From assembly GCA_031268385.1 (NCBI GenBank), contig JAIRXH010000053.1:1-36311 (forward strand): a stretch of 36,311 nucleotides of DNA, given 5' to 3'. The notes beneath the pieces were generated by a model. The model was not told where the DNA came from. It searched no databases and saw only the letters and a list, made by a program, of their open reading frames with translations. Position numbers and translations under genes: made by a program. Positions 21,249 to 21,727 of the stretch are shown in pieces. Each line of letters opens with the position of its first letter. Position 1 is the first letter of the stretch. The stretch is from Treponema sp. GTDB taxonomy: Bacteria; Spirochaetota; Spirochaetia; Treponematales; Breznakiellaceae.

Positions 21249-21727
21249 GCTGAAGGATATTTGTCCTGCAGCGCCTTTACAACGGAAGGGGGCACCATAC
21301 CCGAAATATTCCCGTGGAAAGAGGCGACTTCCTTGACCGAGGAGGACCGGAGCACAAAATATTCGGGGTCCGTCGTCATGAAAATGGTCTCTATATGGGG
21401 ATCAAGGGCCTTGTTCATCATGGAAAGCTCGAATTCTTAGGAAAAATCCTCCATCCCCCTGACCCCCCGGATAAGGATGCGTATCCCCTTTTCCCGCAAA
21501 AAATCCACGATAAGGGAGCCGGAAACCACCACGGAAATATTTTTCCGGTCCCGGATCAGCTCTTTCAGCAGAAAAACCCGCTCCGCGGAGGAAAAAAGGT
21601 ACTTTTTCTGACGGTTTTCCGCCACTACAACCGTCAACCTGTCAAAAATATCCGCCGCCCGCAGGATAATGTTGAGGTGCCCCAGCGTGGGAGGATCGAA
21701 GGAACCGGGAAACGCCGCCTTGAGCAT
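21245..21727 (-). pseudogene. coaD: Pantetheine-phosphate adenylyltransferase interrupted by one stop
   Basis: The frame from ATG 21727 to TGA 21245-21247 is 160 codons, the normal CoaD length, but codon 97 (21437-21439) is TAA. Before it are FPGSFDPPTLGHLNIILRA (nucleotide-binding T/HxGH-type motif) and ILIRGVRGMEDFS. After it, in the same frame, come EFELSMMNKALDP, TDPEYFVL, RSSSVKEVASF and GMVPPSVVKAL, all good CoaD sequence. The stop stands where relatives have Tyr (DFxYE), so one base change from TAT or TAC explains it. CoaD makes dephospho-CoA and is normally essential. A sequencing error, a very recent mutation, readthrough or restart at the following ATG-ATG pair are all possible. No convincing ribosome site precedes 21727. 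Confidence 0.88.

Follow-up and report, generated by a model that had tools for sequence, protein, structure and literature searches.

The window analysed here is the entire contig C58 (36,311 bases) of a draft Treponema sp. genome that comprises 2,855,536 bases in 207 contigs, with a completeness of 85.18% and a contamination of 3.55%. On its minus strand lies a coaD frame that opens with an ATG at 21725-21727 (codon 1) and runs to its natural stop, a TGA at 21245-21247 (codon 161); genes for RNase III and acyl carrier protein lie close by on the same strand. A sequence-only reading of this DNA had reported a CoaD frame of 160 codons in which codon 97 is TAA, with an ATG-ATG five codons past it, and we found both.

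21245..21727, minus strand: 160-codon coaD frame and its TGA, interrupted by one TAA; 179.8 bits against TIGR01510, above cut-off
21437..21439, minus strand: in-frame TAA, codon 97 of coaD, read directly; Tyr in 101 of 107 relatives
21440..21727, minus strand: coaD codons 1-96, before the stop; 110.5 bits against TIGR01510, model positions 2-93 of 155
21248..21436, minus strand: coaD codons 98-160, after the stop, under continued purifying selection; codons 101-159 match TIGR01510
21416..21421, minus strand: ATG-ATG, coaD codons 103-104, the proposed restart; also in G001 and G002, congeners with intact coaD
21734..21763, minus strand: promoter-like site (TTGACT, 18, TATGGT) upstream of coaD; 9 of 12 positions match the consensus

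The interrupted coaD frame

Read across "1 TAA", the coaD frame reaches 179.8 bits with TIGR01510, whose cut-off is 103.3, and covers model positions 2-154 of 155, so that the curated cut-off is exceeded over the whole model. Codons 101-159 taken alone still match model positions 100-154 with 52.8 bits. The frame is thus full-length when set beside bacterial CoaD proteins (TIGR01510; solved relatives 1vlh, 1o6b, and 1b6t), but unlike them it is not a single continuous open reading frame, as the TAA at codon 97 divides it. That TAA is the sole interruption. Codon 97 is nothing special in this respect, because 34 other single-base changes within codons 2-160 would also create a stop.

The two halves could in principle both be used, with translation restarting at codons 103-104 and the pieces assembling into a split enzyme, as the sequence-only reading had suggested among its options. 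The ATGs follow the stop by five codons, which would be near enough for reinitiation, and each piece matches its own part of TIGR01510. However, two congeners with intact coaD have the ATG-ATG as well, so it was not made for restarting, the cut falls inside a region where a congener's protein shows a gap-free alignment to solved CoaD structures, and no such split was seen in the 64 other relatives with coaD. The two nucleotide-binding motifs would also sit on separate pieces. We regard this explanation as extremely improbable. The congener protein used for the structural comparison (92% identical to that of the window) matches 34 distinct solved sequences, with E values up to 1e-10, and aligns to 1vlh over residues 2-157.

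Relatives and selection at coaD

We surveyed 78 relatives, own genome included, and found coaD above cut-off in 65; the remaining 13 lack such a match. None of the 64 others with coaD has a stop inside it. For alignment we assembled 109 loci, 30 from this survey and 79 from the search that also gave the nearest named relatives, and 108 of them were aligned by script (101 distinct aligned proteins). Within-gene stops numbered zero across these 108 loci, the star at residue 158 of L068 being that gene's natural end. At residue 97, the 107 loci that cover it carry Tyr in 101 cases and Phe in two, with Arg, Ser, His, and Gln once each, which bears out the earlier statement that relatives have Tyr at this codon. 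As no relative has an interior stop and Tyr is near-universal at this position, the interruption is unusual among relatives. The nearest named relatives of the window CoaD are two Treponema sp. MAG records with 92% protein identity. The naming of the isolates would suggest a termite-gut origin.

In a large protein set, a shortened CoaD was seen once among the hits listed, and this was the window's own 126-aa open reading frame (one member, one contig); as proteins in this set are grouped at 90%, a neighbouring cluster could conceal an intact copy from the same species. The 120 hits listed of 1,999 include one other protein below 158 aa, which is 141 aa long and 73% identical. A literature search on nonsense codons in coaD turned up nothing on the subject, as judged by the listings of the papers.

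The coaD locus is syntenic with those of the congeners G001 and G002, at 88-91% DNA identity, and we compared the three sequences. The comparison with G001 gives a dN/dS of 0.086 over the 63 codons past the stop and of 0.167 before it; with G002 the values are 0.036 and 0.184, respectively. Changes private to the window past the stop comprise nine synonymous and two nonsynonymous ones, and about 35 nonsynonymous changes would be expected if coaD had been neutral along the whole branch. At the 95% level, coaD can have been neutral for no more than about 18% of the branch, a rough figure drawn from three sequences and one gene. The region past the stop thus shows strong purifying selection and has kept its amino-acid sequence. 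A decayed pseudogene would look different: the post-stop dN/dS is low and there is no second lesion, and neither these measures nor the three-sequence comparison gave any sign of decay in coaD. The sequence-only reading had described the flanks of the stop as well conserved and in frame and the decay as absent or very recent; the profile matches of both halves agree with the first description, and the low post-stop dN/dS and the bound of about 18% support the second.

An intact second coaD, with the window copy a fresh pseudogene, could lie in the roughly 15% of the genome missing from this 85.18%-complete draft. We searched the draft, as the sequence-only reading had proposed, and found no other coaD, making this option less likely than before; two further PF01467 matches (C151 and C141) did not appear among those listed by the CoaD search. 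The copy in the window is, moreover, the syntenic and constrained one, and two coaD genes occur in just one of the 64 other relatives, so we judge a hidden second copy to be very unlikely. The relative concerned is G005, the sole one of the 78 with two full coaD matches (G005:C169 and G005:C142); its listed contamination is 5%.

Readthrough or suppression of a real stop, yielding some full-length CoaD, would fit with the retained amino acids past it. Against this, none of 37 tRNA genes has a UAA-reading anticodon (the set lacks tRNA-Tyr and is therefore incomplete), the RNA fold around the stop is no better than shuffled sequence (166 of 200 shuffles at least as stable), and the stop is shared neither by the 64 other relatives with coaD nor by the 108 aligned loci. 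Nor does UAA look recoded, in the sense of being unused as a terminator or present in-frame elsewhere: TAA terminates 9 of the 18 window genes that are conserved in G001, and the 138 genes compared below offer no second case. Readthrough, another of the options raised earlier, is weakened by the tRNA and terminator counts and strikes us as highly improbable. In the tRNA search, ARAGORN also reported a tRNA-Asn with anticodon ATT at L162 (G000:C24:25000-27500), positions 1156-1228 on the minus strand; this is unusual, as a normal tRNA-Asn (gtt) is present elsewhere.

Stops in other genes and the origin of the TAA

To see how coaD compares with the rest of the genome, we set G001 open reading frames, drawn from 953,915 bases, against 831,578 bases of the own genome, leaving out matches with less than 70% identity, those with fewer than eight differences, and those in which third codon positions accounted for under half of the differences. 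This gave 138 alignable genes (51,330 codons), of which eight contain a stop: five within the first 34 codons, two within the last 15, and coaD in mid-gene. The reverse direction, with G001 as the subject, gave stops in 7 of 132 genes, each either within the first 50 codons or among the final five. We read the start- and end-region stops as effects of start and end choice, a class assigned by position only. Frameshift-like cases numbered one among the 138 genes and zero in the reverse direction. At L221 (G000:C61), around 3293-4500, a G001 gene (L289, 16370-17620) aligns in two separate pieces, a possible frameshift.

Since coaD was picked for its stop, the unbiased count of mid-gene stops is 0 of 137. 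This count argues against a decaying genome, and a dying gene in a host-dependent strain, which the sequence-only reading had entertained, becomes less likely for a 2.86-Mb draft in which no other of the 138 genes is interrupted in the middle. By the same count the assembly is not visibly error-rich either, which speaks against an assembly artefact; still, at an error rate that we assumed rather than measured, one base per 10 to 100 kb, a draft of this size would contain tens to hundreds of errors, and a few of these would create stops.

Two earlier approaches were discarded. A codon-usage scan for interrupted genes over the 831,578 own bases returned 975 candidates, with antisense frames scoring almost like real ones. 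A first comparison based on nucleotide alignment picked out 17 genes of 122 and 16 of 121, many through a faulty frameshift measure. Rechecking 12 of these 33 by tblastn, we found eight without a stop and three with stops in the first 46 codons alone. The remaining case, own L209 read in L266 of G001, shows its stop at aligned position 74, for which start choice is the probable reason, and is absent from the final list.

We conclude, with moderate confidence, that the TAA arose in the draft assembly, either as a consensus error at one base or through a rare defective read path chosen by the assembler. Most cells would then carry an intact, working coaD, and the organism would make full-length CoaD. 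In favour of this reading are the sole interruption, the conserved flanks, the synteny, and the fragmented state of the draft (207 contigs). In the part of PMC11017572 available to us, many in-frame stops in bacterial assemblies are reported to be assembly errors that grow in number at low coverage. The spurious pseudogenes described there resemble our case, in which a gene of a draft assembly is intact apart from one in-frame stop; unlike the genomes in that part of the paper, which had reads for checking, ours is represented by contig sequence alone. A consensus artefact and a very recent real mutation would look alike at this level, and the other explanations each need an extra, unseen element. 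The sequence-only reading had listed five options and chosen none: sequence error stays the best of them, its view that decay is absent or very recent has stood, and the other four have become less likely. We consider it likely that the stop stems from faulty assembly or from a mutation that happened very recently, and not from new biology. The case serves as a warning: where a single-copy housekeeping gene of a draft genome carries one isolated in-frame stop, little can be concluded from it unless reads are at hand.

CoA synthesis in the genus

The metabolic setting of coaD is more interesting than the stop itself. We searched four genomes of the genus for the remaining CoA enzymes and found no match to the CoaBC profile (TIGR00521) in any of the four. 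CoaE matches were found in all four, above cut-off in three; the own-genome coaE lies at the first bases of contig C108 (25-372) and is cut by the contig edge. Across 39 relatives, the DFP domain was found in 3 and the flavoprotein domain in 10, none of them in the genus. Type III pantothenate kinase occurs in 15 of the 39, again outside the genus, and type I gave weak matches in 15, with none above cut-off and none in the genus. Type II pantothenate kinase (PF03630) matches 17 of the 39, including three of the four genomes of the genus. Most of these PF03630 matches span model positions 150-291 of 334 alone, and 0 of 14 control genomes match, so that the search is without a positive control. 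The own match is at C108:3431-3817, about 3 kb from coaE.

From these matches we predict that the genus makes CoA from pantetheine through type II pantothenate kinase, CoaD, and CoaE, with the use of pantetheine by this kinase inferred. CoaD would then be the middle step of a shortened route in which no CoaBC was found, and since its loss would be expected to cut CoA synthesis, CoaD should be hard to lose. The arrangement is like the pantetheine route bypassing CoaBC that is described in the part of the review PMC12570885 available to us, in that the genus has a pantothenate-kinase match, CoaD, and CoaE, and no CoaBC. That account describes the bypass for type I kinases, whereas the match in the genus is of type II. 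On CoA supply in termite treponemes, the string "pantothen" is absent from the main text of PMC13067680, as far as that text was available. The apparent lack of CoaBC, with the predicted dependence on pantetheine, is a by-product of this analysis that is more useful than the stop.

This setting bears on whether the TAA is a real, very recent nonsense mutation, after which CoaD would likely be lost and the cells would depend on dephospho-CoA or CoA taken in from outside, or form a dead-end lineage caught dying. The stop is, after all, present in the contig, the genus is already without detectable CoaBC and so has a partly external CoA supply, and four relatives that are at least 90% complete lack coaD above cut-off (G014, G060, G073, and G032, the last with a piece at a contig start). 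Loss of coaD in some lineages is conceivable from these four, and draft gaps can also explain the absence. However, the part past the stop is fully constrained, none of the 137 other comparable genes is interrupted mid-gene, and CoaE is still present. By the account in the available part of PMC12570885, moreover, E. coli coaD mutants could not be fed, as no tested metabolite rescued them. Real loss comes second among the explanations but is rather unlikely in our estimate. A real and fixed stop would leave this bacterium without a CoaD of its own, which would be unusual. We think it quite unlikely that a spirochaete already living on pantetheine without CoaBC has just lost CoaD too while keeping the kinase and CoaE, a CoA parasite in the making; such a spirochaete would live on dephospho-CoA or CoA from its neighbours.

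The promoter-like site upstream of coaD is one of four such sites in a 1-kb region, where 1.0 would be expected by shuffling. Its two hexamers, TTGACT and TATGGT, are also found upstream of coaD in two congeners. In the window and in both congeners just six bases separate the end of the site from the ATG (21727 in the window), a spacing that, for a putative promoter, would be consistent with a message lacking a leader or with a later start.
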